DNA from: Bacteroidota bacterium
GTDB taxonomy: Bacteria; Bacteroidota; Bacteroidia; Chitinophagales; LD1
NCBI GenBank assembly: GCA_018267385.1
Contig: JAFDYN010000011.1
Span: forward strand, 62,001-126,000
DNA length: 64,000 bases
Direction: 5' to 3'
The translations under genes and the position numbers were made by a program. Of the stretch, positions 5,086-49,673 are shown in pieces; the stretch's first letter is position 1, and every line of letters begins with the position of its first letter. The notes below the pieces were generated by a model. It was given only the letters and a program-made list of their open reading frames with translations. It searched no databases and had not been told where the DNA came from.

Positions 5086-6774
5086 TTACCTTACTACAAA
5101 CTGGCGCACCATGCGGCCATTGGCAGAGCTGATCATCAGTACATAGACACCTGAGGCCACATTGCCCAGGTTCATGTTGATCTTGGTAGAGCCGGTCACA
5201 TCGATATCCTCTGTATGGATGGTGCGGCCTATCTGGTCTACTACGGTCAGCTGGCCCGCTATACGGTCTGCTGATGCGAGTGCCACCGTAAAGTTGCCTT
5301 GGTTAGGATTAGGGTAGATATTCAGTTCTACACCATTCTGCACCTCTGAGATACCGGCAGGATAGCATACGCTGAGCTTGTATGGATACACCTGGCTAAA
5401 GTTGAACTGCATACAGGTATCTATATAGCCGATCAGTGGGAAAGTGCCATGACCGCAAGCCGTACCTGAGATGGTCAGGTTGTAGTCTCCGGCAGCAGTG
5501 ACAGCGGCATTGACTGTCCCTGTCACGTGCGCACAGGCATACCCACCCGGGAAGAGCCAACTGGTCAGCACGGGGTTGCTCACGCTGGTGATACCGGCAG
5601 GATAGCCCGTGATGCTATTGATATTGATAGAGTCTACATAGATCACAGCCTGTCCGGCAGGGATGATAGCCTGGAAATCATGCGCGTCTATAGACGCCGG
5701 TACCTGTATATTGATCTGGCCGCTGTAGGATGTACCGGTCACGATACATGGCAGGCTGGTAGGATATACATGGGTAGAGCTGCTGAAGTGTGTGGTATCT
5801 ACTGTGCAGGCACCTGATCCGTTGCAGACATTCAGGCTGTAGTGGAGGTAGGCGCCGAGGTTGCCGCTCACGCAGCTGTCTATAGCTATACCAAAGATAT
5901 TGCCATGTACGCAGCCACGGCCAAAGAGGTTTACAGCATAGTTGCCTACCGAGTCATTAGTCGTACCTGAGAAGAGCGCACAGCCATATGCACCACCATG
6001 CAGCCACACAGAGTCACCGGGATTGGTAGCTACAGAGATACCCGCTGGTACACCTGTCACGCTATCTATGCGCATAGAGTCTATGTGCAGGTAATACTGT
6101 CCGGCCGGGAGCGCAGATACGAAGAGGTGTGCGTCTATAGAGTCCGGTATCTTCAGGCTCACCGTCTCAGAGTACGGCATACCCTGCATGATACAAGGCA
6201 GCGACTGAGGATAGAAGTACACGCCGCTGGTAAAGTTAGCAGTATCTGGTGTGCAGACACTGGCAGGAGGTGCCGGTGCGCATACATCCAGTGAGTAGTT
6301 GATAAAGTTTGGCAGCTGGCCTGTCTGGCAGGAGTCTACCGGGAAGCCGCCTATGGAGCCATGCACGCAGCCCGCACCAAAGAGGCTGAGTGGATAGCTG
6401 CCTATGGCATCAGCAGTAGTGCCTGATACCTGTATACAGCCATACTGGCCTGCGTGCATCCATGTGCCTGAGCCCGGGCTGGCAGCAGTACTGATACCTG
6501 ACGGGGCACCGGTGATGCTATCCAGACGGATAGAGTCTACATACAGGAAGTATGTATTGGCCGGCAGGCCGCTGAAAAATATCTGAGCGTCTACCGAGTC
6601 TGGTATACGCACATTCACAGTCTCAGAGTAAGACTGAGTCTGGTGGATACATGGCAGAGAGGCTGGATACACGACTGTGCCTGGGGTGAAATGGCTGCTA
6701 TCTACCGTACACTGGGCTGTAGCGCCAAATGCTAAGGCGATGAGAGCAGACAAAAACAGTAATGCTTTTTTCAT
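5086..6774 (-). CDS. exported protein with three six-Cys repeats and a type A T9SS sorting domain
   Basis: This is a secreted or surface protein of unknown function, 562 residues. A Sec signal peptide (1-20) is followed by three homologous repeats at about 22-165, 174-317 and 323-470. The first two each have six cysteines at matching positions (22, 42, 113, 136, 149, 165 and 174, 194, 265, 288, 301, 317), which suggests three disulfides per unit. The C-terminal 80 residues are a T9SS type A sorting domain (NIYPNPNQGNF, then G.Y.L.I and a basic end), which directs export across the outer membrane. It has its own terminator, and a TAnnTTCG element lies 32 bp upstream. A ligand-binding or adhesive role is a guess from the repeat architecture. 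Confidence 0.85.
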   Translation of the reverse strand: MKKALLFLSALIALAFGATAQCTVDSSHFTPGTVVYPASLPCIHQTQSYSETVNVRIPDSVDAQIFFSGLPANTYFLYVDSIRLDSITGAPSGISTAASPGSGTWMHAGQYGCIQVSGTTADAIGSYPLSLFGAGCVHGSIGGFPVDSCQTGQLPNFINYSLDVCAPAPPASVCTPDTANFTSGVYFYPQSLPCIMQGMPYSETVSLKIPDSIDAHLFVSALPAGQYYLHIDSMRIDSVTGVPAGISVATNPGDSVWLHGGAYGCALFSGTTNDSVGNYAVNLFGRGCVHGNIFGIAIDSCVSGNLGAYLHYSLNVCNGSGACTVDTTHFSSSTHVYPTSLPCIVTGTSYSGQINIQVPASIDAHDFQAIIPAGQAVIYVDSININSITGYPAGITSVSNPVLTSWLFPGGYACAHVTGTVNAAVTAAGDYNLTISGTACGHGTFPLIGYIDTCMQFNFSQVYPYKLSVCYPAGISEVQNGVELNIYPNPNQGNFTVALASADRIAGQLTVVDQIGRTIHTEDIDVTGSTKINMNLGNVASGVYVLMISSANGRMVRQFVVR

Positions 6775-12132: not shown

Positions 12133-13488
12133 ATGCCAAACATCCTCATTGCAGACGACGAGAAGGCCATCCGCAAGACACTCCGTGAGATACTGGAGTA
12201 CGAAGGCTACAAAGTAGACGAGGCCGAAGACGGCCAAAAAGCCTACGAGATGGTAAAGGACGGAGAGTACGATGTGGTACTCTGCGATATCAAGATGCCA
12301 AAGATGGACGGCATGGAGGTGTTGGACAAACTCAAGAAAGAAGGTACAGAGGCGCAGATCATCATGATCTCCGGTCACGGTACCCTGGAGACAGCCGTAG
12401 ATGCTGTCAAGAAGGGTGCCTACGACTTTATCTCCAAGCCACCTGATCTGAACCGTCTGCTGATCACCGTGCGCAATGCACTGGACAAGTCTAACCTCGT
12501 GACAGAGACCAAGATCCTGAAGCGCAAGGTGGGCAAGACCCGCGAGATAGTAGGCGACTCTCCGGCTATCATGAAGATCAAGGAGACCATCGAGCGCGTA
12601 GCGCCTACAGAGGCACGCGTACTGATCACCGGTGAGAATGGTACCGGCAAGGAGCTCGTAGCCCGCTGGATACATGAGAAGTCTAACCGCGCTGCCGGCC
12701 CGCTGATAGAGGTAAACTGTGCCGCTATACCAGGCGAGCTGATAGAGAGTGAGCTATTCGGTCATGAGAAAGGTGCCTTCACCTCTGCTATCAAACAGAA
12801 GCTGGGCAAGTTTGAGCTGGCCAATGGTGGTACGCTCTTCCTGGATGAGATAGGTGATATGTCTCTCTCCGCCCAGGCCAAAGTACTTCGCGCCCTGCAG
12901 GAAAACCGCATCAACCGTGTAGGTGGTGATAAGGACCTACTCGTAGATGTGCGTGTGATAGCTGCTACCAATAAGGACCTGACCAAGGAGATAGAGGAGG
13001 GTAAATTCCGCATGGACCTTTACCACCGCCTCAGTGTGATACTGATCCATGTGCCATCGCTGCATGAGCGTGCGGATGATATACCGCAGCTGGCAGATAA
13101 ATTCGTACGCGAGATATGCGAGGACTATGGTATACCTAAGAAAGTGATCACCCCTAAGGCGCTGGAGGAGCTCAAGACCATGCGCTGGGATGGCAATATC
13201 CGCGAGCTGCGCAACGTGATGGAGCGCCTCGTGATACTCTCTGACCAGAAGATCACGGAGGATGAGGTCAAGAGCTTCGTGACCAATACACAGGCCAAGG
13301 AGACACCGACAGACCTCTTCGAGCAGTTTGATAAATTCCAGGACTTTAAAGAGCATATTGAGAAGCTCTTCATAGAGCACAAGCTCAAGAAGTTTAACTG
13401 GAACGTGTCTAAGACGGCTGAGCTACTGGATATTCAGCGCAGCCACCTGTACAATAAGATCGAAAAATTCGACCTGCGTCGTAACTGA
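12133..13488 (+). CDS. sigma-54-dependent response regulator (NtrC/AtoC type)
   Basis: A 451-residue activator: receiver domain (1-120, phospho-acceptor D52 in CDIKMP, acidic D8/D9), AAA+ domain (about 140-375) with Walker A GENGTGKE and Walker B-like LFLDEIGDM, and a Fis-type C-terminal helix-turn-helix ([13 protein letters not shown]). It would activate RpoN promoters by ATP-driven remodelling; rpoN is present at 60073. The sigma-54 contact loop, normally GAFTGA, reads GAFTSA here (nt 12775-12792), a Gly-to-Ser change. No cognate kinase is adjacent, so its signal is unknown. A hairpin follows the stop. Confidence 0.93.
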
Positions 13489-13513
13489 TAGCATTCATTT
13501 TAGTCTTTGTGCA

Positions 13514-13547
13514 ATGGTCCCCGGTGCTGCCGGGACCATCTCTTTTT
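13514..13547 (+). terminator. terminator of the sigma-54 activator gene
   Basis: ATGGTCCC...GGGACCAT with an inner CGG/CCG stem (one bulged base) is followed by CTCTTTTTA. Its end touches the stop of the convergent small gene at 13546. Confidence 0.75.
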
Positions 13548-13851
13548 ATGGCAGGTCTATGTCTTTGCGAAGGAGATCGGGATGTATACGCTTATTAGGC
13601 TTGAAATCATATTTGCGCTCACGCTCTTCCTGCGTCTGAAGCTCATATAGGAATGTAGCGGTTTCTTCTATCCATTGAAACACTTCCTCTGTAGATAGTG
13701 CAGCATGCTTCTCCATTTGCTCCATTGTAACATTGTAGGTGAAGCCCACCCGCTTTTCTGAATTTTCTGATTCCATTACTGTGACTAAATATACGCTTTC
13801 CCGGTCGTACACTAAATAGATTTTCTGCCTTACATTCACCGCATGATACAT
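13546..13851 (-). CDS. small hypothetical protein
   Basis: About 101 residues from the ATG at 13849-13851; the open frame extends to 13998, but the upstream part lies antisense to the well-supported start of the M16 peptidase gene and is probably not translated. The protein has an N-terminal strand pair (KIYLVYDRESVYLVTV) and a helical, charged C-terminal half. No family is recognised. With this start the two divergent start codons overlap by 9 bp, so each promoter would have to lie inside the other gene; a later Met at 13776 or a GTG at 13839 are alternatives. Confidence 0.45.
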   Translation of the reverse strand: MYHAVNVRQKIYLVYDRESVYLVTVMESENSEKRVGFTYNVTMEQMEKHAALSTEEVFQWIEETATFLYELQTQEERERKYDFKPNKRIHPDLLRKDIDLP

Positions 13852-15081
13852 TTCAATGAAGTGGTCCTGGCCAATGGCCTCCGGATACTCGTACATGAAG
13901 ACCCCGCTACTCCGCTCGCTGCTGTCAATATCCTCTATAAAGTAGGTGCCCGTGATGAAGACCCGAATAAGACAGGCTTTGCTCACCTTTTTGAGCACTT
14001 TATGTTTGAAGGCTCGGTTAATATACCGGAGTTCGACGCGCCACTGCAGTTTGCATCCGGAGAGAATAATGCCTTTACCTCAAACGATATCACCAACTAC
14101 TACGACATCCTCCCTGCTACCAATCTTGAGACTGCCTTCTGGCTGGAGAGTGACCGTATGCTCTCGCTGGACTTCAATCTGGAAAGTCTGGAGACCCAAA
14201 AGAAAGTAGTCTGCGAAGAGTTCAAAGAGCATTATATCAATCAGCCATATGGTGATGTCTGGCACAAACTTTCTGCACTGGCGTATAAAGTGCATCCATA
14301 CCAGTGGCCTACCATCGGCAAGGAACTCTCGCATGTAGAGAACGCTACCATGGAAGATGCCAAGGCTTTCTTCTTCAAATACTATCGCCCGCGCAATGCA
14401 GTGATGGTAGTGGCCGGTGGAGTGAAGACCGCAGAGGTGGAGAGATTAGCAAAGAAGTGGTTCAGCGATATACCTGGTGGTGAGCTGGCGCTGCACAACC
14501 TGCCAAAGGAGCCGATACAGACAGACGCGCGCATACTGGAGCTGCATGAAGATGTACCCCTTAATGCGATCTATAAGGCGTATAAGATGTGCGACCGCCT
14601 GCATGCGGACTATCAGGCATCAGACTTTATTCGCGATATGCTGTCTACCGGTGAGTCATCCCGACTCTATAATGAATTGGTAAAGGAGAAGAAGGTATTC
14701 AGCTCTGTGGCGGCCTATCTGTCAGAGACGATAGATGATGGCATGTTCATAGTAGAGGGCAAACTGAACCCCGGCATCAGCATGGATGATGCGGACAAAG
14801 CTATAGAGGAAAGCTGCCTGCGCCTCGCGGATACAGTGACGGAGAATGAACTGCAGAAAGTAAAGAACAAGACTGAAGCCTATCTCACATTCAGCGATAC
14901 CAATGTGCTGAACCGTGCTATGAACCTGGCCTGGTATGATATGCTCGGAGATCCTAATGGTATCAACCGTGAGATAGATAAATACCTCGCTGTGACTACC
15001 GGTCAGATTAAAACGGTGGCCCAACGGATCTTTGATAAAAACAGGTGCAGTACCGTGCGGTATTTTGCCAAGAATAAGTAA
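13843..15081 (+). CDS. M16 zinc peptidase, catalytic subunit
   Basis: A 412-residue pitrilysin-type metallopeptidase. The inverted zinc motif HLFEH is at 48-52, with the distal Glu in EEFKEHYINQ about 75 residues later, as in processing-peptidase-like M16B enzymes. No signal peptide is visible, so it is cytoplasmic or its export is unrecognised. It forms a two-gene operon with an M16 homologue lacking the zinc site, starting 4 bp after this stop. By analogy with M16B heterodimers the two should form one peptide-degrading enzyme. The start is chosen at MIHFNEVVLANG, the usual N-terminal strand. Confidence 0.92.
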   Translation: MIHFNEVVLANGLRILVHEDPATPLAAVNILYKVGARDEDPNKTGFAHLFEHFMFEGSVNIPEFDAPLQFASGENNAFTSNDITNYYDILPATNLETAFWLESDRMLSLDFNLESLETQKKVVCEEFKEHYINQPYGDVWHKLSALAYKVHPYQWPTIGKELSHVENATMEDAKAFFFKYYRPRNAVMVVAGGVKTAEVERLAKKWFSDIPGGELALHNLPKEPIQTDARILELHEDVPLNAIYKAYKMCDRLHADYQASDFIRDMLSTGESSRLYNELVKEKKVFSSVAAYLSETIDDGMFIVEGKLNPGISMDDADKAIEESCLRLADTVTENELQKVKNKTEAYLTFSDTNVLNRAMNLAWYDMLGDPNGINREIDKYLAVTTGQIKTVAQRIFDKNRCSTVRYFAKNK

Positions 15082-32087: not shown

Positions 32088-34319
32088 CTACCTCCGCTCG
32101 GATAGAGCATCCGTGTTTAATATCACGAACTCCACTCGCCTATTCATCTGGTGTTGCTCTTCACTGCATCCTGACTTCCCATCTGGCGTACAGTCGCAGA
32201 ATATAGCAGGGCGTGTTTTGCCAAAGCCTACAGGTTTCAGGCGTAGCCCCTGTATACCATGCTGCTCCAGGTAGGCCGCAGTAGAGTTGGCCCGGCGTTG
32301 TGAGAGCACCATGTTATAGCTCTCAGATTCACGGCAGTCTGTATGCGCAGAGATCTGCACACGCCAATCAGGATGGTCTTTCATCGCCGTTACCACTTTG
32401 TCTAATTCTACAGCTGCATCAGGGCGGATATTCCATTTATCCAGGTCAAAGTAGATGTTTTGAAGAGATGCTGTATAGTTGATCGTGTTCTGATGGAGGC
32501 CCATGGTTACTTTCAGCGTATCGCCGTTCACGAGCGTTTCTGAGGAAACTACTTTTACCTCAGAGAGATAGTATTTATTGTCTTCTGCCGGTATTTTGTC
32601 TACGTCTATTTTGTATTGATGGCCCACTACTATATCAGCGTATATAATGCCGGTAGCGTCGGTGCGAAACTGTGCATTCTCCTTTGTATTCATATCAGTG
32701 ATCACCCCGGTAGCATGGTTTACGGGCTGATGGGTCACCGCATCCTCTATATTGACCAGTAGATGTACAGCTCCTATGCGTGTGATGTAGATGATGCGCC
32801 TGGTAGTTCCCTCCCGCGTGATCACAGGTACTTCGCGCGCTGCGTATCCTAGTTTTGAAGTGCTTAAAGTATATTGTGTACGTGGCCTGGCACCAAAACA
32901 GAAACCTCCATGACGGTCGCTTTGGTCATCAGTAGATAAACCTGTATCGGTTTCCTTTAGCGTCACTTTTACATCCTCTACCGGTAGATGAGTGTCACGA
33001 TCTACTACCTGGCCCACGATATTGATCTCCTTGCGTACAAATGAGTAAATATCATCACCGCCCTTGCCACCTGCACGATCTGATGCAAACATACCATTCA
33101 CTCCCTTTTCGTCCATGATGTAGCTGAAATCGTCGTAGTTTGTATTTACAGGGGCACCTATATTTCGTGGACGCGACCAGCTACCATCGGGCAGCATATA
33201 GGAACGATATACATCCAATCCACCCAGACCGGCATGCCCGTCGGAAGAAAAATACAAGGCGCTGTCTCCCGAGATAAAGGGAAACATATCATCACCCATG
33301 CTATTGATGTCCGGACCCAGGTTTTTCGGCGTGCCCCACTGACCGGATGCTGCGCGTGTAGTCACATAGATGTCCATACCACCCTGGGCCTCCGGTGCCG
33401 GCATATCACTGGCAAAGTACATAGTACTACCGTCTGACGTCACTGTAGGATGCATCACAGAATATTCATTGCTATTGAATGGAACTGCTTCAGACACCTC
33501 ACTCATAAAGAAACCATACTGTGGGTCGCAGACTATTTTGTATAGCTTGGTTTTGACTGTTTCCGGTTTCTTCTTGTTGCTATTGCTGCGGGTGATGAAA
33601 AGCTCATGAGTAGCGGCGCAATAGCTCGATGGTCCTTCATGAAATTTGTTATTGAAATTGCGAGCCTTCAGCAGCTTAGGATCTGTATAAACCTGTGTAC
33701 TGAGCGAACTGGAGCTGTACAATCTCAGAAAGCCACGCCCCGACCAATTGTCTCGACGCATCACAGGCCTGTGCTGGTCTCGGTTTGAGGTAAGCAATAT
33801 TTGCTTGTCTACGAAGTAGGCTGGCGCAAAGTCAGACCCTTCGGAGCTGAGATGTAGTTGGTTTTCTATCAGGTAGCGGCCATCGTCATATTGTAGTTTT
33901 CCCAGTTCTTTGGTGCCTATGATGCATTGTTGTATTGAAACGTTGGGTTTGCCGGTATAGGTCAGATAAGACTCAAAGCTTTTCCCGGCCAGATCATACT
34001 TCTTGTTGTACCTGAGCTGCTGCGCGTAGTAAAACTTATTGATAGGATCAGCGGCATTATTTTCTGCCAGCGGGGCGTAGGCTTTCTCGGCGGCAATATG
34101 GTCTCCCAGGAGGCGGTAGCAATCTGCGATACGCATCTGCAGGTACACGTTGTCTTTGTCCTTTTTCAGAGCTAGCTGATAGGTCTCCAGGGCGTCTTTA
34201 AATTTAAAGGCATGAAATTGCTTGTCTCCATAGCTGGTCAGGACTTTCTGGGCAAAAAGCATGGGAGCGATCACAAGCAGCAGGATCAGCAGGATAATAT
34301 GAGGTAATAATTTTTTCAT
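32088..34319 (-). CDS. TPR/PD40/OmpA-family protein, PorE-like
   Basis: A 743-residue envelope protein. After a signal peptide (1-23) come TPR-like helices (about 30-150), a PD40/WD40-type beta-propeller (about 190-430, with SNRD, FASD and SSDG blades), a carboxypeptidase-regulatory-like domain (about 440-530) and a C-terminal OmpA domain (619-743) with peptidoglycan-contact residues D661 and R676. PorE of the T9SS has this order, and such proteins often sit beside PorP/SprF genes. It is the last gene of a four-gene run. Its likely role is anchoring the adjacent secretion/adhesion complex to peptidoglycan (inference). Confidence 0.85.
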   Translation of the reverse strand: MKKLLPHIILLILLLVIAPMLFAQKVLTSYGDKQFHAFKFKDALETYQLALKKDKDNVYLQMRIADCYRLLGDHIAAEKAYAPLAENNAADPINKFYYAQQLRYNKKYDLAGKSFESYLTYTGKPNVSIQQCIIGTKELGKLQYDDGRYLIENQLHLSSEGSDFAPAYFVDKQILLTSNRDQHRPVMRRDNWSGRGFLRLYSSSSLSTQVYTDPKLLKARNFNNKFHEGPSSYCAATHELFITRSNSNKKKPETVKTKLYKIVCDPQYGFFMSEVSEAVPFNSNEYSVMHPTVTSDGSTMYFASDMPAPEAQGGMDIYVTTRAASGQWGTPKNLGPDINSMGDDMFPFISGDSALYFSSDGHAGLGGLDVYRSYMLPDGSWSRPRNIGAPVNTNYDDFSYIMDEKGVNGMFASDRAGGKGGDDIYSFVRKEINIVGQVVDRDTHLPVEDVKVTLKETDTGLSTDDQSDRHGGFCFGARPRTQYTLSTSKLGYAAREVPVITREGTTRRIIYITRIGAVHLLVNIEDAVTHQPVNHATGVITDMNTKENAQFRTDATGIIYADIVVGHQYKIDVDKIPAEDNKYYLSEVKVVSSETLVNGDTLKVTMGLHQNTINYTASLQNIYFDLDKWNIRPDAAVELDKVVTAMKDHPDWRVQISAHTDCRESESYNMVLSQRRANSTAAYLEQHGIQGLRLKPVGFGKTRPAIFCDCTPDGKSGCSEEQHQMNRRVEFVILNTDALSERR

Positions 34320-34362
34320 GGTGAAATGATTGATAAAGGTGCAGGAATGTTATGCGGCTTGA

Positions 34363-35343
34363 TTAGAAATATCGTCCATAGCGAGGGGTTACAAACCGTT
34401 TTTTATCATACCAGAAGTCGTATCCGATCATGATCTCATGGCTACCGCTATTCACTGAGCTGAATTTTGATACGCCACCCTCATAGGCATACCCGATGCG
34501 TAGCTGAGGCGTGATCATAGCCTCTATCATGCCTATCACGGACTCGCCATAGATACGCCTGTCGCCGCCAGTGCGGTAGGAGGCTCCTACTTTGATACGA
34601 TCTATGAAAATGAACATGGCATTGATATCAAAGTCAGGGATGTTCTTCGGAAGGCCCTGCTGATACATGGCCAGAACGGAAGGCGTGAATTTCACAATGC
34701 CTGCCTGCCTGCCGAATACATAGCCTCCGGTCAGAAGATAGTAATTGTAGAGGCGCGCCACGTTGCTATTACCCGGATTTTCGATGGCGCTTTTCTTCAG
34801 TGAATATGGAAGTAGATGCGGGACAGAGAAACCCACAAAAAAACGCTTGCTGTCTTTGTCATTTACATAGATACCCGCTCCGATATTGGGTACAAAGAGG
34901 CTGTGGCCGCCTACGGTCACCATGTCTTGCTGGTACTGCTCATTGAGAACGGCATTGCCGGCATTTTTGGAGAAGTAAGTAAAGCTGGCCTGTACACCTA
35001 TGCTGATGCGCACATTTTTGACCAGAGGCCTGTAGGCAAAGGCAGGAGTGACACTGAATGAATTGGTCAGGCCGAGGTTGTCGTCGGCTATGGTAAGTCC
35101 TAGTGCATACTGGTCACGCTTGAGTGGTGAGTTAGCGCTAAAATTGAATGTGCGGGGTGCGCCATTGACACCGACCCACTGGTGGCGGTACATAGCTACC
35201 ATACTCAGCACGTTATTACTGCCGGCATAGGCAGGATTCAGGTATAGCCCATTGAACATATACATGTTGTAGGACGGGTCTTGCTGGGCCATCGCGTGCA
35301 CCATGGCGATCAGTATGACGATAGTGATATATATCTTTTTCAT
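34363..35343 (-). CDS. PorP/SprF family T9SS outer membrane protein
   Basis: A 326-residue outer membrane beta-barrel with a signal peptide (1-19) and the family's start QQDPSYNMYMFNGLYLNPAYAGS (20-42), then regular amphipathic strands and an aromatic C-terminus (RYGRYF). In Flavobacterium, SprF is needed to export SprB, and PorP/SprF proteins attach type B cargo at the surface. The gene is 43 bp upstream of the PorE-like gene and 20 bp downstream of a type B cargo gene, which fits a dedicated cargo/receptor set. Confidence 0.92.
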   Translation of the reverse strand: MKKIYITIVILIAMVHAMAQQDPSYNMYMFNGLYLNPAYAGSNNVLSMVAMYRHQWVGVNGAPRTFNFSANSPLKRDQYALGLTIADDNLGLTNSFSVTPAFAYRPLVKNVRISIGVQASFTYFSKNAGNAVLNEQYQQDMVTVGGHSLFVPNIGAGIYVNDKDSKRFFVGFSVPHLLPYSLKKSAIENPGNSNVARLYNYYLLTGGYVFGRQAGIVKFTPSVLAMYQQGLPKNIPDFDINAMFIFIDRIKVGASYRTGGDRRIYGESVIGMIEAMITPQLRIGYAYEGGVSKFSSVNSGSHEIMIGYDFWYDKKRFVTPRYGRYF

Positions 35344-35363
35344 GGCTGTCGTTTAGGGTTTAT

Positions 35364-37097
35364 TTATCTGCTCAGATCCAGGAAACTTGCTTTCTTTCGG
35401 CCGGTGCCGTCGTTATAATAAAGCACATAGAAATAGGTGGCGTCAGGCAGTGCTGCACCGTTATAGTTCTTTCCTGCAAAGTCGTCATGATATGGCCCAT
35501 GGCTATACCAGACCTCATCACCGTTTCGATTGTATATACTTATTGTAGCATTAGGATACCAGTGCAGCAGGTTAGGTATTACAAAATTGTCGTTGGTGCC
35601 ATCACCATTCGGTGTAAATGAGTTTGGTATGATGATCTCATGATAGAGCACTACAGGAGCTGTAGGCGTACCTGATGGACAGGTATCACAATTAGCTGTG
35701 GGGATCGGTACAGCTCCTACACCGGTGAGAAAGCCAAGATTATCCAGTGTGTCAGATATCGCCCTGACATTGATGTCTAGTGTCACGCTATCCAGATGCG
35801 GCAGGCTATCGCTATATACAGCTGTGACGATGCCATTGGTATAGGTCACCTGCATATCCGGAGATGTGGCAGACAGGTACATAGCTCCTGCGGGCAGCGT
35901 ATCGGTAATGGTGAGCGGTGGCTGTAGCGTTTGCCAGCCTGTATTGGTCAGCCGCATATGATAGGTAAAATCATCTCCTATGTAGACACTATCAGGATGA
36001 ACCGTCTTGACAAATTTTACACCAAGCTCTACTACCGGAGAGAATTTGCTATAGCGTGTGGTAGTCGTAAAGTCTGTGAGCCCTGTGCGCGTCAGGAGGG
36101 AGCCATTGCTTATGGCTGAGCCTGTCGTCAGTAAACCGGGCATGGAGCCAGCAGAAGTAGTGTACGTGTCCCATATAGATGCTGATGCATCAGAACGGGC
36201 TATATACGCCTGCGAGTCGTCATAGCGCGGGTCATTGGCTGCCGGACCACCGGGGCCGGTTACTTGATTGTGCTGGAGCGTCAGCGATACATTGGATCCT
36301 CCGGCTATATCTTCGCGTACGTCCCATGTGCGATAGATACCTGCCAGCTCTGGATTAGGCGGATCTATACCCGCCAGAGCGCGGAGGCTGTAGCGGTCAG
36401 TAGTGCCATCATTCAGTAATCTGGCCGGTGTATAGTCTCCAGCCGCTATACCTACGGGGTATATAAATCCTGCAGAGCCGACTGCATCCTTGCTCACTAC
36501 ACCAGTGCTGTCAGTGATCAGGAAATGAGCCGGAGTATAGCCTGCTACGTTACCATTGGTTGTAAATCGGGCATTGTATTGATGCAGTGTCAGATTATTA
36601 CCTGAGGTGCTGCTATCAAAGCTCAATCTGCCGTCAAAGATCATGTCGGCTATAGTGTCTGCGGCATAGCCCAGGACTGCTGCAGGAGGTATATTAATGA
36701 GGGCAGCACCCTGCGGATTGCGTAGCAAGACCCGGCAGCCTATAGTGGCACTACCGCCATCCAGGTTCTGGCCTCCCCAGGAGAGTGCCGTACTACCTAT
36801 GGTGTATATAGCAGGATTGTCAAAAATGATGGTTCCTGTGCCTGTGATGGTAGCAGTGGGCGAGATATACACTTGCTGGCTGGCTATGCGCCAGTCTCCG
36901 ATCACATTGATACGCGCGCCCGGGCCTATATAGAGCTGCTGGCTCATGGTGGTAGCCCCACCGGGGAATATGGTCACTGCGCCTGTCACCTCTGTATAGG
37001 GCGTGGCAGCCCAGGCCATAGTGCTGGTTAGGAGTAGCAGGACCAGGTTGTTGATATATGGGATCAGCTTTTTCATTGCCATACTTTTAGTGAGCAT
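35364..37097 (-). CDS. secreted protein with DUF11-like repeat and type B T9SS C-terminus
   Basis: A 577-residue cargo protein. The signal peptide begins at the Met at 37076 (MKKLIPYINN); earlier in-frame starts at 37097 and 37082 cannot be excluded. A long beta-rich region is followed by a DUF11-like domain (about 370-460, KTVHPDSVYIGDDFTYHMR) and a gliding motility-associated type B T9SS domain (about 490-577, PNSFTPNGDGTNDNF). The SprF-like gene directly downstream is its probable anchor. It is 20 bp from the repeat-protein gene upstream. Confidence 0.87.
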   Translation of the reverse strand: MLTKSMAMKKLIPYINNLVLLLLTSTMAWAATPYTEVTGAVTIFPGGATTMSQQLYIGPGARINVIGDWRIASQQVYISPTATITGTGTIIFDNPAIYTIGSTALSWGGQNLDGGSATIGCRVLLRNPQGAALINIPPAAVLGYAADTIADMIFDGRLSFDSSTSGNNLTLHQYNARFTTNGNVAGYTPAHFLITDSTGVVSKDAVGSAGFIYPVGIAAGDYTPARLLNDGTTDRYSLRALAGIDPPNPELAGIYRTWDVREDIAGGSNVSLTLQHNQVTGPGGPAANDPRYDDSQAYIARSDASASIWDTYTTSAGSMPGLLTTGSAISNGSLLTRTGLTDFTTTTRYSKFSPVVELGVKFVKTVHPDSVYIGDDFTYHMRLTNTGWQTLQPPLTITDTLPAGAMYLSATSPDMQVTYTNGIVTAVYSDSLPHLDSVTLDINVRAISDTLDNLGFLTGVGAVPIPTANCDTCPSGTPTAPVVLYHEIIIPNSFTPNGDGTNDNFVIPNLLHWYPNATISIYNRNGDEVWYSHGPYHDDFAGKNYNGAALPDATYFYVLYYNDGTGRKKASFLDLSR

Positions 37098-37117
37098 TCG
37101 GTTTAGGTGCAGGGCTG

Positions 37118-40063
37118 TTACTTGACCCAGTTGCCAGAGAAATGCTGTATGGTAGAAGAAGACGATATCAATCCCAGTGTGATGGCATTGGTAGCACCGA
37201 GGCCCACGTATACCTTTTCGCCTGCATTGAGGCGCACCAGTGTCGATACCGAGTTGGTCCCTATCGTGCCCGGCCCGAGGCCGAGCGTACTGGCCGAGAG
37301 TACCTGTGTGCTACGTGACGACTGCAGCACTACCGGTGTGCTGCCATCTTTGATGATGGCTATGCCCCAGGAGAAGGTGCCACCTACGCTGAGCAGGGAT
37401 GGATTGATGAGCAGGCTCACGCTATAGGTTAGATTGTAATAGCCGGCTACGGGTGCTGTAAAGTAGCTCGCAGTTGTGTTGGCTATCATGTTGTAATTAT
37501 TGAACTGCGGGTAGGTGTTCAGGTTCGTCAGCGTCTGCGCCTCGTAGGCTGATGCCACGTCAGGCGAACTGCCGAGTAGGAGCGTCAGGCTCAGGAATGA
37601 GTTGCTGGTACTGGTACCTGAAATGTTGAATCCTTTAAAGAGTGAGTCTACAAGACCGGAATTGATCAGAGTCTGTATAAGGCGGAGGCTGTCTACGGTT
37701 ACGCTTGTGTTTTTCAGAGTAGTACCTACGCCATTAGTTACTGCCAATGCAGGAGAACCGCTGGTGAGGTCGTGAGCATGACTACCTATGATGCTGACTA
37801 TCGTGTCACTCACCGGAGAGACGGGCAGGACATGAGCCAACCCAATTGTATCTATGCTCAATGGAGAGGCAGCAGTACCGTTACCGGTCAATGTGCTATT
37901 GTGTACTACTACCTGCGTGCCCCAGTTATCTCCCGTGATGAGTGTAGATACATCAGTGAACGTAGTACCACCAAATGAATCACGGATCAGCACTTGATTA
38001 GGGGTGCCACCGTTTGGCACCAGGCGATTGCTGTCTATATTGATCGCTACATTCTGGAGGCTGGCGCCAGTACCGCCTGTCACAGTGATAGGAGAGGCAG
38101 CTGTGATATTGCGTCCCTGAGCTACTACAGTACTAAAAATGCTGTCACGCAGCGGAGAGTGATTGCTATTATCCGCTACTATCTTGATAATGCTGTCATG
38201 CAATACTGGGCTATTGACTATAGTAGATACGAGCGTGTCTTTATTGATATCTACGCTTGCATTGACCAGCGTAGCACCCGAACCACCAGTTACAGTCACG
38301 AGGCTGCTGCCTGCGGTGAGGTCATGCGCGTCTCCATGTACGATACTCAGTATGGTGTCTCTGGTCGGCTCTGTCTGTATCTCTATGGCCAGGCCAAATG
38401 AATCTATAGTGAGCGGCGAGGTGGTTGTGCCATTTCCCGCCAGCGTATTGTTGTGGAAAATCACCTGGCTTCCCCAGTTGTCGCCGGCAGCGACACCCCA
38501 GACTGAGGAGCCAGATGAATCCTTTATCAAAATTTGTCCGGGAGTACCTCCTGTCGGTACCAGCCGGTTGCTGTCTATGCTGATGCTCATGGCGGCGAGG
38601 CTGGCTCCGGTGCCACCTGCTACTGCTATTGGCGATACTCCTGTTACATTGCTTGCATTGCCATGCACGATGCTGAGTACTGTATCGCGTGCTGGCTGTG
38701 TCTGGATCTCTAACGCGAGGCCAAATGAATCTATTTTGAGTGGCGATGCAGCCGTGCCATTACCGGCTAGAGTTGCATCATGCGCTATCACTTGTGTACC
38801 CCAGTTATCACCAGTGACGAGTGTAGACACATCAGTGAAGGTAGTTCCGCCAAATGAATCACGGATCAGGACCTGATTAGGGGTGCCACCGTTTGGAACC
38901 AGGCGATTGCTGTCTATAGTGATCGCTATATTCTGCAGGCTGGCCCCCGTTCCGCCTGTCACAGTGATAGGAGAGGCGGCTGTGATATTGCGTCCCTGCG
39001 CTACTACAGTACTAAAAATGCTGTCACGCAGGGGAGAGTGATTGCTATTGTCAGCTACTATCTTGATGATGCTGTCATGCAATACTGGGCTATTGACTAT
39101 AGTAGAGACGAGGGTGTCTTTATTGACATCTATGCTTGCATTGACCAGCGTAGCACCTGTACCTCCGGTCACACTCACCAGACTGCTGCCAGCGATGAGG
39201 TCATGCGCGTCTCCATGTACGATACTCAGTATGGTGTCTCTGGCTGGCTGTGTCTGTATCTCTATGGCCAGGCCAAATGAATCTATAGTGAGCGGCGAGG
39301 TGGTAGTGCCATTTCCCGCCAGCGTATTGTTGTGAAAAATCACCTGGCTTCCCCAGTTGTCGCCGGCAGCGACACCCCAGACTGAGGAGCCAGATGAATC
39401 CTTTATCAAAATTTGTCCGGGAGTACCTCCAGTCGGTACCAGCCGGTTGCTATCTATACTGATACTCACTGCACTCAGGGCGGCATGGCTACCTCCTGAT
39501 ACAGCTAGCGGGCTCTGCGCAGTGATGTCTCTGCCGCTATGTGTCACGATACTGACTATACTGTCAGGATTTACATCGATGGTAGCATTGTGCAGGGTCG
39601 CCTGTGCTCCGCTACCTATGGTGATAGCTCCCGACGGAGATGTCAGGCTCCCTGAGCGCAGGAGTACCGCATGGTAGATGCTGTCTATCAGCGGCTGGTT
39701 GTGCGCGTTTTCGGCTATGATGCGGATCACATCCGCCTGGGTCAGCCCCGGAGCAGAGCATAGGTTCATCCACGTACCCGTAGTATATAAGAAGGCGCAG
39801 CCAGAATCGGACACATATACTACCATACCTGGCACGGGGGTAGTGATGGATGCCATCTGCTGGTGCGTCATGCGCGGCAGCAGCAGGCCTTTATTAGTGC
39901 TCTCCATTTCCAGGATGGCAGAGGCATTGATCGTATTGGGGTTGTCTCCCAGCTTCATCTGGGCCCAGGCTGGTGTGGCAAAGAGGAGGACCACTACAAG
40001 TGACAGGATAGCTTTGAGTCGTTTTTCACTACATAGGTGTAGGGTTGAGTATGTCTGTTTCAT
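37118..40063 (-). CDS. 981-residue tail-fibre-like repeat protein with C1q-like C-terminus
   Basis: A secreted protein (signal peptide 1-34). Residues 36-103 are the tail-fibre-like N-terminal module common in Bacteroidota (ILEMESTNKGLLLPRMT). Residues 201-735 hold a 293-residue super-repeat in two copies, with GDNWG at 234, 418, 527 and 711. Each contains NRLVP.GGTP.Q.LI.DS and TLAGNGT..SPL.IDSFGLA units. The last 140 residues resemble a C1q/TNF-like jelly roll (YFTAPVAGYYNLTYSVSL, then VRLNAGEKVYV). No T9SS sorting domain is seen. It is the first gene of the run with the type B cargo, SprF-like and PorE-like genes. A trimeric surface fibre is the best guess. Confidence 0.82.
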   Translation of the reverse strand: MKQTYSTLHLCSEKRLKAILSLVVVLLFATPAWAQMKLGDNPNTINASAILEMESTNKGLLLPRMTHQQMASITTPVPGMVVYVSDSGCAFLYTTGTWMNLCSAPGLTQADVIRIIAENAHNQPLIDSIYHAVLLRSGSLTSPSGAITIGSGAQATLHNATIDVNPDSIVSIVTHSGRDITAQSPLAVSGGSHAALSAVSISIDSNRLVPTGGTPGQILIKDSSGSSVWGVAAGDNWGSQVIFHNNTLAGNGTTTSPLTIDSFGLAIEIQTQPARDTILSIVHGDAHDLIAGSSLVSVTGGTGATLVNASIDVNKDTLVSTIVNSPVLHDSIIKIVADNSNHSPLRDSIFSTVVAQGRNITAASPITVTGGTGASLQNIAITIDSNRLVPNGGTPNQVLIRDSFGGTTFTDVSTLVTGDNWGTQVIAHDATLAGNGTAASPLKIDSFGLALEIQTQPARDTVLSIVHGNASNVTGVSPIAVAGGTGASLAAMSISIDSNRLVPTGGTPGQILIKDSSGSSVWGVAAGDNWGSQVIFHNNTLAGNGTTTSPLTIDSFGLAIEIQTEPTRDTILSIVHGDAHDLTAGSSLVTVTGGSGATLVNASVDINKDTLVSTIVNSPVLHDSIIKIVADNSNHSPLRDSIFSTVVAQGRNITAASPITVTGGTGASLQNVAINIDSNRLVPNGGTPNQVLIRDSFGGTTFTDVSTLITGDNWGTQVVVHNSTLTGNGTAASPLSIDTIGLAHVLPVSPVSDTIVSIIGSHAHDLTSGSPALAVTNGVGTTLKNTSVTVDSLRLIQTLINSGLVDSLFKGFNISGTSTSNSFLSLTLLLGSSPDVASAYEAQTLTNLNTYPQFNNYNMIANTTASYFTAPVAGYYNLTYSVSLLINPSLLSVGGTFSWGIAIIKDGSTPVVLQSSRSTQVLSASTLGLGPGTIGTNSVSTLVRLNAGEKVYVGLGATNAITLGLISSSSTIQHFSGNWVK
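37859..39463. repeat. 879-bp tandem super-repeat in the 981-residue protein
   Basis: Copy 1 spans 38585-39463 and copy 2 about 37859-38584 before it diverges. Long stretches (for example 38401-38580 against 39280-39459) differ at only a few positions. The copies are in register at 293 codons, so homologous exchange would keep the frame. Confidence 0.85.
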
Positions 40064-43691: not shown

Positions 43692-46600
43692 ATGAAACAC
43701 CTCTTACTCCTATCCCTGCTATTTCTATCTTTATTCGTCAGCGCTCAGGCCCCCCCTCAGGGCATAAACTATCAGGCCATTGTGCGCAATGCATCCGGAT
43801 CTGTAGTGGCCAATACACATGTGGCGATCCGTTTTACTATCCATGATCAGACAGCTACAGGCACAGTGGTCTTTCAGGAGACGCATGCACAGACTACTAA
43901 TCAATTTGGCCTGTTCAACTCGGTGATCGGCACCGGTGGAGGCAACCTAAGTACTGTAGCCTGGGGCAGTGGCCCTAAGTTTCTGCAGGTAGAGGTAGAC
44001 GTGAATGGCGGTACCAACTATACCGATATGGGCACCAATCAGATGATGAGTGTGCCATACGCCCTATACGCCGGCAACGGTGGTGGTGGCGCTACAGGCG
44101 CTACCGGTCCACGTGGTGCTACTGGTGCTACCGGGGGCAATGGTGCCACGGGCGCTACTGGTCCCACCGGTGCAGGTGGTGGGGCTACAGGTCCGACCGG
44201 ACCCGCAGGTGCTACCGGCGCAGCTGGACCTCAGGGTGCAACTGGTGCCAATGGTAATGATGGCGCTACAGGTCCCACCGGCGCGAATGGCAATAACGGT
44301 GCTACAGGCCCTACGGGAGCCAATGGTAACGATGGTGCGACAGGTGCAACTGGTGCAAACGGAAACGATGGCGCTACCGGTCCCACCGGCGCGAATGGTA
44401 ATGATGGTGCAACCGGTCCTACGGGAGCCAATGGTAACGATGGCGCGACAGGTGCAACTGGTGCCAACGGAAATGATGGCGCAACAGGTCCTACCGGCGC
44501 GAATGGCAATGACGGTGCAACCGGTCCTACGGGAGCAAACGGTAACGATGGAGCTACTGGTCCCACTGGTGCGAATGGGAATGATGGTGTAACCGGTCCT
44601 ACAGGAGCAAATGGTAACGATGGCGCGACAGGAGCAACGGGCGCCAATGGAAATGACGGTGCAACAGGCCCCACCGGTCCTACTGGGGCAGGTGGCGGTG
44701 CTACAGGTCCTACCGGTCCTACTGGCGCTGGCGGCGGAGCTACTGGTCCAACGGGAGCAAATGGTAATGATGGTGCGACCGGCCCTACAGGTCCTACGGG
44801 TGCCGGTGGAGGTGCTACAGGTCCAACCGGCCCAAGTGGTAATGACGGAGTGACTGGTCCTACCGGTGCGAATGGAAATGATGGTGCTACGGGTCCATCA
44901 GGCGCTGACGGTGCTACCGGCGCAGCAGGTGTCACTGGTCCTACTGGTAGTAATGGCGCTACCGGTCCGAGTGGTGCAGATGGCGTTACCGGACCAACAG
45001 GTGTAAACGGAAACAATGGCGCAACAGGTCCGACTGGTGCTAGTGGTAATGATGGCGTCACCGGACCTACCGGTCCTACTGGCCCGAGTGGTAACGATGG
45101 AGTGACTGGTCCTACCGGTGCGAATGGAAATGACGGTGCTACTGGCCCTGCCGGTGCTACTGGTCCATCTGGCGCTGATGGTGCTACAGGTGCAGCAGGT
45201 GTCACTGGTCCTACTGGAAGTATTGGTACTACCGGCCCGAGTGGCGCAGATGGCGTAACCGGCCCAACAGGTGCAAATGGAAATAATGGCGCAACAGGTC
45301 CGACCGGCGCTAGTGGTAATGATGGTGCGACCGGACCTACGGGCCCTACGGGTGCCGGCGGAGGTGCTACGGGTCCTACAGGCCCAAGCGGCAATGATGG
45401 CGTGACTGGTCCTACCGGTGCGAATGGAAATGACGGTGCTACTGGCCCTGCCGGTGCTACTGGTCCATCTGGCGCTGATGGTGCTACAGGTGCAGCAGGT
45501 GTCACTGGTCCTACTGGAAGTATTGGTACTACCGGCCCGAGTGGTGCAGATGGCGTCACAGGTCCTACAGGCGCTGGTGCTACTGGTCCTACAGGCCCAA
45601 CAGGTACAGATGGTGCCACGGGTGCTCAAGGTCTTACCGGTCCTACAGGTGCTGGTGCCACAGGTCCTACCGGCCCAAGCGGTGCAGACGGAGCTACGGG
45701 CATAGCCGGACCTACAGGTCCTTCCGGTGCCGATGGCGCCACAGGCGTGGCAGGCCCGACCGGCGCAGATGGCGCTACTGGTCCTGTAGGCGCTACTGGC
45801 CCTTCTGGTGCTACTGGCCCTTCTGGTGCAACTGGTTCTACCGGACCTAGCGGTGCAGCCGGTGCAACAGGTGTAGCCGGCCCTACAGGTCCTTCGGGAG
45901 CGGATGGAACCACAGGTGTGGCAGGCCCGACCGGCGCAGCCGGCGCTACGGGTCCATCCGGCGCAGATGGTGTTACTGGTCCTCAGGGTGCTACAGGGCC
46001 TACGGGTGCTGGTGCTACAGGGCCTACCGGTCCTAGTGGTGCAGACGGTGCCACAGGTTTAGCTGGCCCTACAGGTCCTTCGGGGGCGGATGGAGCCACA
46101 GGAGCAGCAGGTCCTACGGGTGCTGCTGGTGCGCCTGGCCCATCAGGTGCAGATGGCGCTACTGGTCCTGCAGGAGCTACTGGCCCGAGTGGTGCAGCTG
46201 GTGCTACCGGTCCGACCGGCCCTCTGGGCACTGCCGGCGGCGACCTTAGCGGTACCTATCCTAACCCCACTGTTTCTGGTATACAAGGAACTCCGGTGAG
46301 CAATACAGCCCCAGCTAATGGCAGCATATTACAATACGATGGTACCAACTGGACTCCATCGGATCCTAATGGTCTCTACTGGAAGGTGACAGGCAATGGT
46401 ACGACCACTCCATCTTCTTCAGCTATAGGTACGGCTGCCACAGGCAATTTTATCGGAACAACTGATGCCAAAGATTTTGTTTTTGCTACTAATAATCTGG
46501 AACGCATGCGCCTCAGCTCTGATGGCAAGCTAGGCTTCCGTACTTTGACGCCTGGGGCAGGGCCCAATACAACTGCTGTACTCGATATATGGGACGAGGA

Positions 46601-49600
46601 CGGTCTGCACAGTGATGTGCAGCAGAGGGTAGCAGGAAATGGGAATAATTCGGCCTTCTACACATTCGCAAAATCCAGAGGTAGTCTGGCAGCCCCTCTG
46701 ACAGCTGTGTCCGGAGACCGTATGGGTCATATTGAAGGACAATTTTATAATGGAACAGCGTGGAACGTAGCTTCCTCTATTGATATAGCGATAGACTCTA
46801 TACCCAATAGCGATGCGCCAGGCAATCTTAGTTTCAATACTACTGCTGTAGGAGCCACTGGTCCTACTCAGAGAATGATCATCAAGAGCAATGGTTCTGT
46901 GGGTATAGGTGTGGGTACGCCTAACTCTCCTCTCACAGTCCGCACCTCACATGCATGGGCCAATGCGCGAATGACGTCACTTGCCAATGCGATCAGCGAT
47001 CAGAATTTTGAACTCGTGACGCAACGTGGTGCCCTCACCAACTCTCCTGGGGATATCATGACCTCCATTGGTCAGGCCTATGGAGGCGGTAGTATATCGG
47101 AGGGTATCAGCTTTATCCGCAATGTAGGAGCTACAGACGGAGCTATGATATTCAGTACCAACAGCGCAACTGAGCGTATGCGTATCCTGAGCAATGGTAC
47201 GGTAGGTATAGGTACTTCCACTCCTTCAGGTTTTGTACATCTCTCTACCAGCTCCGCCCTCACTCAGGTCAATCAATCCAGCTCTGCAGTGGGTACCTGG
47301 CTATCTATCAATAACAGTAGCACAGGTGGCCAATGGTTCCAATTGATCTCTACGGGTAGTAGTAACGGCGAAGGTGCCGGCAAATTTATGCTGACCAAAG
47401 GGGCCGCAGTAGGTACAGTAAGTGGCCGATTTATGGTCTGTGATTGGGCCTCTCTGATGACCGGTATGGCGGGGGTCACGGCACCGACTGCGAATCTGGA
47501 TATCTATGGTACTGCTGGCGGTACAAATTCGCTGCAGCTACGTAGTGGTAATGTCTCTAATGGAACCAACAGCAACCAGATTCTATTTGGCTATAATGGA
47601 ACGGATACTTATCGCCATGCTATCAAAACTCGTCATAATGCAAGTAATGCAGTAGGCAATTCTATCGACTTTTATCTCTGGAAACAAGGTACAGACCTTA
47701 CTACCGATATAGGTACAGATGCTGCTGTCACTATAGATGGTAACTACCGCGGCATGATAGGTGTGGGTACTACCGCTCCCAAGAGTGAAGTGCACATATC
47801 TGATGGTAGCTCTAGTCTCAAGTCGGTGACAGATGCTGGAGGCTATGGTGCTTCGCTGTTGATCACTGATAATTCAATTCCACGCATTTATTTTGAAAAT
47901 GCAGGCCAGGGTACTGATCAGAAAATGATGGGTATCACCTCTCTGGGTAGCACACTGAGTATCGGTGCGCTGAATGATGCTGCCAGCGCATGGACCAATC
48001 AATATATCCTGACAGCAGACCGCAGTGGCAATGTAGGTATAGGTACTGGTTCACCATCAGTCAAGTTTGATATAGAAGGAGGTACAACATCTCCTGCATT
48101 CAAGCTGGTAGATGGTACACAAGGTGCTAATAAGGTGCTGACCAGTGATGCCTCCGGCAATGCGAGCTGGGCTAGCCTGTCTGGCCTTAGTACCAATATC
48201 TATACTGCCGATGGCACACTCGGAGGCAACAGGACCGTGACCATGGGTAGCAACACCTTGACCTTTAATGGGTCTTCTACTTATGCTATTACCGGTTCAG
48301 GTTATGTGGGTATACACACTGCATCTCCTGTCAGTCTGCTGTCCAATACTGCCTTGAATATTATTGGCAGTGATTTTCAGGGCATCAACCCCAATAGCTT
48401 CACATGGGTACACAATGCCAGTGGATATACGGCGGCGATGTACAACAGCGCCACATCGTCCAGTGCCAACGGTCTGGCTGTGAAAGTAGCTGGTACCGCC
48501 AGCAGCAATAGACTGCTCGACCTCTCTACAGGCACCTCTCAGACTACTGCCGGTACTACCGTGATGGAGGTACAGGGAGATGGTAAAGTAGGTATCGGTA
48601 CCGGTAGCCCTTCGTATAGGATGCACGTATACACTCCTACCAATGGCGATGGTATCATGCTGGATGGGGCTAATAGCGTAGGATATGCTTTAGGTACGGC
48701 AGGTACAGTGAAAGCACAGATAGGCATTGCAGCGGGAGCGACAGCCTGGTCTACAGATGCTGCTGTCGGAGACCTGGTAATTAGGTCTCAAGCCAGCACG
48801 CAGAAAATACTCTTCAATACCAATGGCGGTACGGGAGGATCTACCATGGCCATCAATGGATCTTATGTGGGTATAGGTACCACTGCTCCTGTGGTACCAT
48901 TGGATATACAGAGCACTGTGAACTACAATATGGGTAGCTACGGCTATCTCAATAATAGCACATGGGGTACATCTAGCTGTAGCGCCTGCGCCACCAGTGT
49001 ACGCGCAGCGGGGCGTATCGTCTGCCCTGAGTTTAATGCTACATCAGATCGCCGTATCAAGGATATCCAGGATATCAGTAACGGAGCTGCCGATCTTGCT
49101 ACACTCAATCAGATAGAGGTTACAGATTTCAAGTATAAAGACCAGGTGGCCAGTGGATCAGAGCGCAAAAAAGGATTCATAGCTCAGCAGGTAGAAACTG
49201 CCTATCCGGAGGCAGTACACCAGATGACTAACTTTATACCGAATATATATGCGCTGGCTCAGACGGTAGCATACAGTGAGGTGCAGCAGACACTGACCAT
49301 CACTATGGATAAGGCTCATAAACTGGATGTAGGTGATAGGGTCAAACTGATCACAGACAAGACCGATAAGCTGGAAGCTATCGTCAGCGAGGTGCTGTCT
49401 GACAAATCATTCGTAGTGAAAGGAATGACAGAGTCTGCCAAGAGCGTTTTTGTATATGGCAAGGAGGTGGATGATTTCCGTGTAGTAGACTATGACCGTA
49501 TCTATACGCTCAACGTCTCTGCCACTCAGGAGCTCTGCCGCCGTATCGCCGCGCTGCAAAATGAAAACGATGCGCTGAAGAATAACGACTCAAAGCAGAA

Positions 49601-49673
49601 TGAAGCCATCAAGAGCATGAAGGCTCAGATCGATGCGATCAGTGAGAGGATGAATATCACTACTACCAAATAG
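43692..49673 (+). CDS. 1993-residue collagen-like fibre protein with C-terminal S74 chaperone/autoprotease domain
   Basis: Order of parts: signal peptide (1-19); a Bacteroidota N-terminal domain (20-128, [15 protein letters not shown]...VPYALYA); about 720 residues of Gly-X-Y repeats (131-847), dominated by [12 protein letters not shown] and GPS triplets; a linker [13 protein letters not shown]; tail-fibre-like repeats with VGIGT..P motifs (about 870-1760); and a Peptidase_S74 intramolecular chaperone from S1785-D1786 (TSDRRIKD) with a C-terminal coiled coil. In phage tail spikes this domain drives trimer folding and then cuts itself off at that Ser-Asp. The gene should encode a trimeric surface fibre, perhaps maturing by release of 208 residues. 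It lacks a T9SS domain. A consensus promoter and a strong terminator make it monocistronic. Confidence 0.9.
44083..46233. repeat. collagen-like Gly-X-Y coding repeat
   Basis: About 2.15 kb of 9- and 36-bp-based repeats (frequent unit [12 protein letters not shown]) encode the collagen-like tract. A 143-bp segment at 45102-45244 recurs exactly at 45402-45544, 300 bp later, a sign of recent duplication. The tract has almost no Lys or Arg (one GPRG near its start). The long antisense frames through it are by-products of its codon pattern. Confidence 0.92.

Follow-up and report, generated by a model that had tools for sequence, protein, structure and literature searches.

How a surface fibre without a sorting signal of its own could be displayed is the question raised by four adjacent minus-strand genes at 32088-40063 of the 64,000-nucleotide stretch of Bacteroidota DNA analysed here (the window). 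An earlier note on this DNA had read them as a large repeat protein, a type B T9SS cargo, a PorP/SprF barrel and an OmpA/PD40/TPR protein, separated by gaps of 20, 20 and 43 bp, and both the ORF listing and the domain matches agree with this reading (Table 1). It had also singled out the first gene as unusual for lacking a sorting domain, which is borne out and generalises to other loci. Its description of a ‘self-contained’ secretion operon, however, does not hold, because the operon supplies carrier and anchor only. The SprA gene and a GldK gene with GldL/GldM-like neighbours each lie on a contig other than that of the operon, and their presence means that the export machine exists in the source genome.

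Table 1 Features of the four-gene operon, in window coordinates
Feature	Position	Strand	Basis or remark
Gene 1, fibre protein, 981 aa	37118..40063	-	Signal peptide, head, repeat shaft, putative C1q/TNF-like tip; no T9SS sorting domain
Gene 1 head domain, about residues 39-102	39758..39949	-	Family common to many Bacteroidota fibre proteins; fold match weak
Gene 1 shaft repeats	37842..39325	-	Internal repeat copies
Gene 1 predicted C1q/TNF-fold tip, residues about 862-977	37133..37480	-	Weak Pfam C1q match and Foldseek
Gene 2, T9SS cargo, 577 aa, ‘FPVG’ partner superfamily	35364..37097	-	ORF and profile comparison
Gene 2 N-terminal partner domain	36018..37013	-	Homologous to cargo beside fibre genes in other families (hhalign)
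Gene 2 type B CTD	35373..35636	-	CHU_C, TIGR04131
Gene 3, PorP/SprF-family carrier barrel, 326 aa	34363..35343	-	Pfam and NCBIfam; no cysteine
Gene 4, PorE-like TPR-PD40-CarboxypepD_reg-OmpA protein, 743 aa	32088..34319	-	Pfam domain order; no lipobox cysteine

Scans for promoter-like sites and terminators at the operon gave chance level only, and the Bacteroidota-type promoter consensus has no exact match at the four genes. In the window as a whole this consensus (TTTG-N17-22-TANNTTTG) occurs five times against 0.5 expected, at 5892, 11585, 13978, 24974 and 43624, with one site directly upstream of a collagen-like fibre gene near the operon (43692-49673, plus strand). The 1993-aa product of this neighbour has a Bdellovibrio MAT-type N-terminus (NCBIfam, under the cut-off) and a C-terminal S74 chaperone domain, and the gene is kept at 61% in Bacteroidetes bacterium UBA1941 (G005).

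That genes 2-4 encode cargo, carrier and anchor is well supported by homology. By its profile matches gene 2 classes as a T9SS type B cargo (CHU_C, 5.7e-22; TIGR04131 type B CTD, 46.0 bits against a cut-off of 35) and gene 3 as a PorP/SprF-family carrier (Pfam PorP_SprF, 1e-64; TIGR03519, 229.6 bits against a cut-off of 90.55). Gene 4 has the Pfam domain order of PorE, namely TPR, PD40 beta-propeller, CarboxypepD_reg and OmpA. We call it PorE-like rather than PorE because it scores 309 bits against the NCBIfam PorE model, under the cut-off of 600; the best other NCBIfam model, CHU_0125_OmpA, gives 395 bits of 620. Read from the sequence, gene 4 has no lipobox, and its first cysteine is residue 67. 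Within its OmpA domain, D661 and R676 are conserved in the sequence and lie 15 residues apart, as do the residues with which OmpA domains bind diaminopimelate; gene 4 is predicted to bind peptidoglycan and its cognate carrier.

On its own, the triad of genes 2-4 is ordinary and of a known kind. The cargo-SprF-PorE-like order is widespread in the family, where triads as a rule have no fibre gene and the cargo is usually very large. The source genome has 18 PorP/SprF genes and several further sets of this order, including L054, L055 and L057. It also encodes a 521-aa fusion of a complete PorP/SprF barrel, a coiled-coil-like stretch and an OmpA domain (Pfam PorP_SprF, 1e-48; OmpA, 1e-23), beside a type B cargo that exceeds 2400 aa (L059:7111-8676; C23, about 13110-14675). 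This fusion shows the link from barrel to wall directly. A PorE-PorP-PG1035 complex, with PG1035 as the type B member, has been published for P. gingivalis (PMC9143113), and five operons of F. johnsoniae combine a PorE homologue, a type B substrate and a shuttle, for which a static wall-anchored complex was proposed (PMC12618676). The suggestion of a dedicated surface receptor and wall anchor for the cargo therefore agrees with both the protein families and the published complexes and, because of the latter, is not new. Like these sets, the window operon joins a type B cargo, its cognate PorP/SprF carrier and a PorE-like, putatively peptidoglycan-binding protein, and static surface anchoring has been proposed for them (PMC9143113, PMC12618676). 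Unlike them, it is headed by a sorting-signal-free, putatively trimeric fibre, and its cargo is short and belongs to the ‘FPVG’ partner superfamily.

The carrier itself bears on whether such a base would be static or mobile. In F. johnsoniae, cysteines in the C-tail of SprF tie this carrier by disulfide bonding to the GldK track, which moves (PMC12635249). Gene 3 (P0002) has no cysteine anywhere in its sequence, hence no C-tail cysteine of the gliding-type SprF, which leads us to predict static rather than gliding anchoring. Across all 18 PorP/SprF genes of the source genome (L054-L068 and the window), the tail cysteine is absent in 7/8 carriers linked or fused to a PorE-like/OmpA partner and present in 8/10 unlinked carriers (Fisher p=0.015); L056, one of the two unlinked exceptions, adjoins GldK and is probably the core PorP. 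Tail-cysteine content thus tracks the presence of an adjacent PorE-like gene and could be of help in telling mobile carriers from static ones by their sequence. Several carriers in the recurring modules of other genomes described below keep the cysteine despite a PorE-like gene, so static anchoring may not apply to every module. At L060:7786-8853, a PorP/SprF gene whose product has a tail cysteine is followed by a gene for a GldK paralogue of ~500 aa, possibly GldJ.

Gene 1 has a signal peptide, as read from the sequence, and neither Pfam nor NCBIfam finds a sorting domain in it. Its internal repeats comprise two 300-nt copies at 85% and three 113-nt copies at 75-78%. The trimerisation-type head and the C1q-like tip had been missed in the earlier note. 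The head belongs to a family, called HEAD below, that is shared with fibre proteins from many of the relatives sampled. A head model built from 34 sequences (mean pLDDT 80) was nearest in Foldseek to the trimerisation domains of collagen XVIII/XV and to CBA120 tailspike heads, with probability up to 0.99 and E-values of 0.07 and above, which makes the likeness a weak match. The tip reached E=0.005 against Pfam C1q (PF00386) at 17.5 bits, short of the gathering cut-off of 23.7, and the tip of the gene 1 orthologue reached E=0.0019; comparing the C-terminal domain with the PDB by sequence gave nothing significant. A structural model of the tip, of modest confidence (mean pLDDT 56), had 221 Foldseek matches in the PDB at E<=0.001, among the matches listed mainly members of the TNF/C1q superfamily. 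This low-confidence model places the tip in the C1q/TNF jelly-roll fold. Across the whole family the tip was found in the window genome and G005 only. From the weak head match and the tip fold, the product of gene 1 is most probably a trimeric stalk that ends in a binding tip of C1q/TNF type, and its reading as a trimeric fibre is supported by predicted fold and architecture.

A known counterpart is the mosaic adhesive trimer (MAT) of Bdellovibrio, likewise a phage-tail-fibre-like trimer with variable tips that include TNF/C1q-like ones (PMC10769870). The head of gene 1 differs: Bdello_MAT_N (NCBIfam) does not match gene 1 and matches the neighbouring 43692-49673 product instead. The N-terminus of MAT fibres is thought to bind a surface element, left unidentified in PMC10769870, which mentions neither a secretion system nor a carrier for them.

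The operon is syntenic in G005, with the gene order kept at 82-88% identity and flanks that match from the collagen-like gene through mnmE and beyond. This is the only orthologous, syntenic locus, and gene 1 is present in it at 84% identity, with the operon intact; the loss of the first gene from syntenic loci, which the earlier note had named as evidence against its reading, is thus not what we see. G004 lacks the whole operon beside mnmE and has other genes downstream of it, and the G001 contig stops right behind mnmE.

What is new relative to the known triad is the recurrent set of fibre, cargo, carrier and anchor. At loci with cargo, SprF and PorE-like genes in other genomes of the order, a fibre gene lies directly upstream in 12/13, although about half of the 12 are truncated by a contig end or a gap, and the call there relies on the part that is left. 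These upstream fibres are non-orthologous to gene 1 and mostly collagen-like with a beta tip. The order there is fibre, often a small gene, type B cargo, SprF and PorE-like, giving four or five genes; L226, L228 and L260 have the same fibre-to-PorE-like order. The four-gene order is found in other genomes in equivalent form, with a non-orthologous fibre first, but most paralogous triads of the family have a giant cargo instead. The small gene encodes a secreted protein of 90-123 aa and is absent from the window. Small low-complexity proteins between fibre and cargo were noted at L226, L228, L270-L272, L276, L278, L279, L285 and L308, and similar ones downstream of other HEAD fibres at L210, L230, L237 and L238. 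A locus of the source genome (L065:3938-7555, on C5) looks like a counterpart of the L226/L228 module without the fibre, small and PorE-like genes; it resembles L226/L228 in the flanking 325-aa OmpA lipoprotein and in the kind of cargo and carrier. We found no paper describing a fibre in a cargo-SprF-PorE operon in the open-licence literature.

The pairing extends beyond these modules. Profile A1, which represents the type B partner-cargo group, was searched in 120 relatives and has members in 63 of them, roughly three to a genome. A HEAD fibre gene lies within 1 kb of a partner cargo at 13/40 loci, and control loci hold one HEAD per about 330 genes. Chance adjacency of fibre and cargo would be <1% per cargo under generous HEAD densities, a rough guide only, because the loci come from related genomes and are not independent, so that the stated chance probabilities overstate the case. 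Most HEAD-type fibre genes in the sampled loci have no adjoining T9SS cargo, and the fibre class therefore does not always need a T9SS partner. HEAD fibres with a type A CTD of their own (L261, L263) seemed likely by eye but were confirmed by neither NCBIfam nor Pfam and were therefore left aside; L261:5415-10907 shows one or more HEAD fibres and an S74 domain, then a tail that by eye resembles a type A sorting domain.

The cargo proteins adjoining HEAD fibre genes share an ‘FPVG’ N-terminal domain across several families, with type A sorting domains at L242-L246 and type B sorting domains in the window and at L069, L210, L226, L228 and L260. The N-terminal domain of gene 2 matches the type A partner profile A5 (hhalign Prob 97.8, E 9.5e-13), and type A partners in turn match the main type B partner group (hhalign Prob 95.9). 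Compared directly with the main type B partner family, gene 2 gave an hhalign Prob of 1.1, and the HMM search with the main type B partner profile did not list it. Gene 2 is therefore tied to this family only indirectly, through the bridge of A5; an HMM search seeded with gene 2 alone returned its orthologue only. The functional pairing of fibre with cargo is supported by recurrent gene order.

Taken together, we think that the four genes probably, if only just, build one static surface appendage, in which the fibre sits on a wall-anchored base of cargo, SprF-type carrier and PorE-like protein. Gene 2 would be secreted by the T9SS, and the gene 3 carrier would take its type B CTD from the SprA translocon, stay in the outer membrane and keep the cargo outside. 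From below, the gene 4 rod would fix gene 3 to peptidoglycan. The gene 1 trimer would attach to the gene 2 partner domain and in this way be presented as an adhesive stalk; we infer this physical docking from the gene neighbourhood. The fibre itself may be carried across the outer membrane through SprA, together with the cargo, or may take a different route.

The main rival limits the complex to genes 2-4, an ordinary type B triad, and takes the fibre for an operon neighbour displayed independently, for instance as one more of the numerous HEAD-type fibres in these genomes. That most sampled HEAD fibres lack an adjoining T9SS cargo and that triads of the family generally lack a fibre gene would both fit, but fibre and cargo adjoin far more often than chance would predict, and they do so repeatedly, with non-orthologous fibres and with type A as well as type B cargo, and we regard this rival as rather unlikely. 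It is improbable that genes 2 and 3 are instead a mobile gliding adhesin system like SprB-SprF of F. johnsoniae, with the fibre as an accessory of the gliding machine. SprF-type carriers do serve gliding adhesins too, holding type B cargo at the surface as predicted here (PMC12635249), and GldK is present in the source genome; the window carrier, however, lacks the twin-cysteine C-tail that would link it to the track and adjoins a PorE-like anchor gene, whereas the published mobile substrates are encoded without PorE-like genes (PMC12618676). Still less credible is a captured phage tail-fibre gene that came to lie upstream of the triad by chance. The weak resemblance of the gene 1 head to tailspike heads and the matches of collagen-like relatives to phage tail-fibre families point that way, but gene 1 encodes a signal peptide, its surroundings showed no phage genes, it is 84% identical in a relative with the operon intact, and the arrangement recurs.

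A wider reading is more tentative: short T9SS cargo proteins of type A or type B may act as exported adaptors for sorting-signal-free trimeric fibres with collagen-like or repeat shafts and C1q/TNF-like tips, the type B base being bolted to the wall via SprF and a PorE-like protein. One secretion system would then present proteins that it does not itself recognise. The recurring gene set offers a concrete candidate receptor for trimers without a sorting domain, namely a partner cargo held by SprF and a PorE-like protein, and if the fibres exit together with their cargo, the T9SS repertoire would be larger than counts of sorting domains show.
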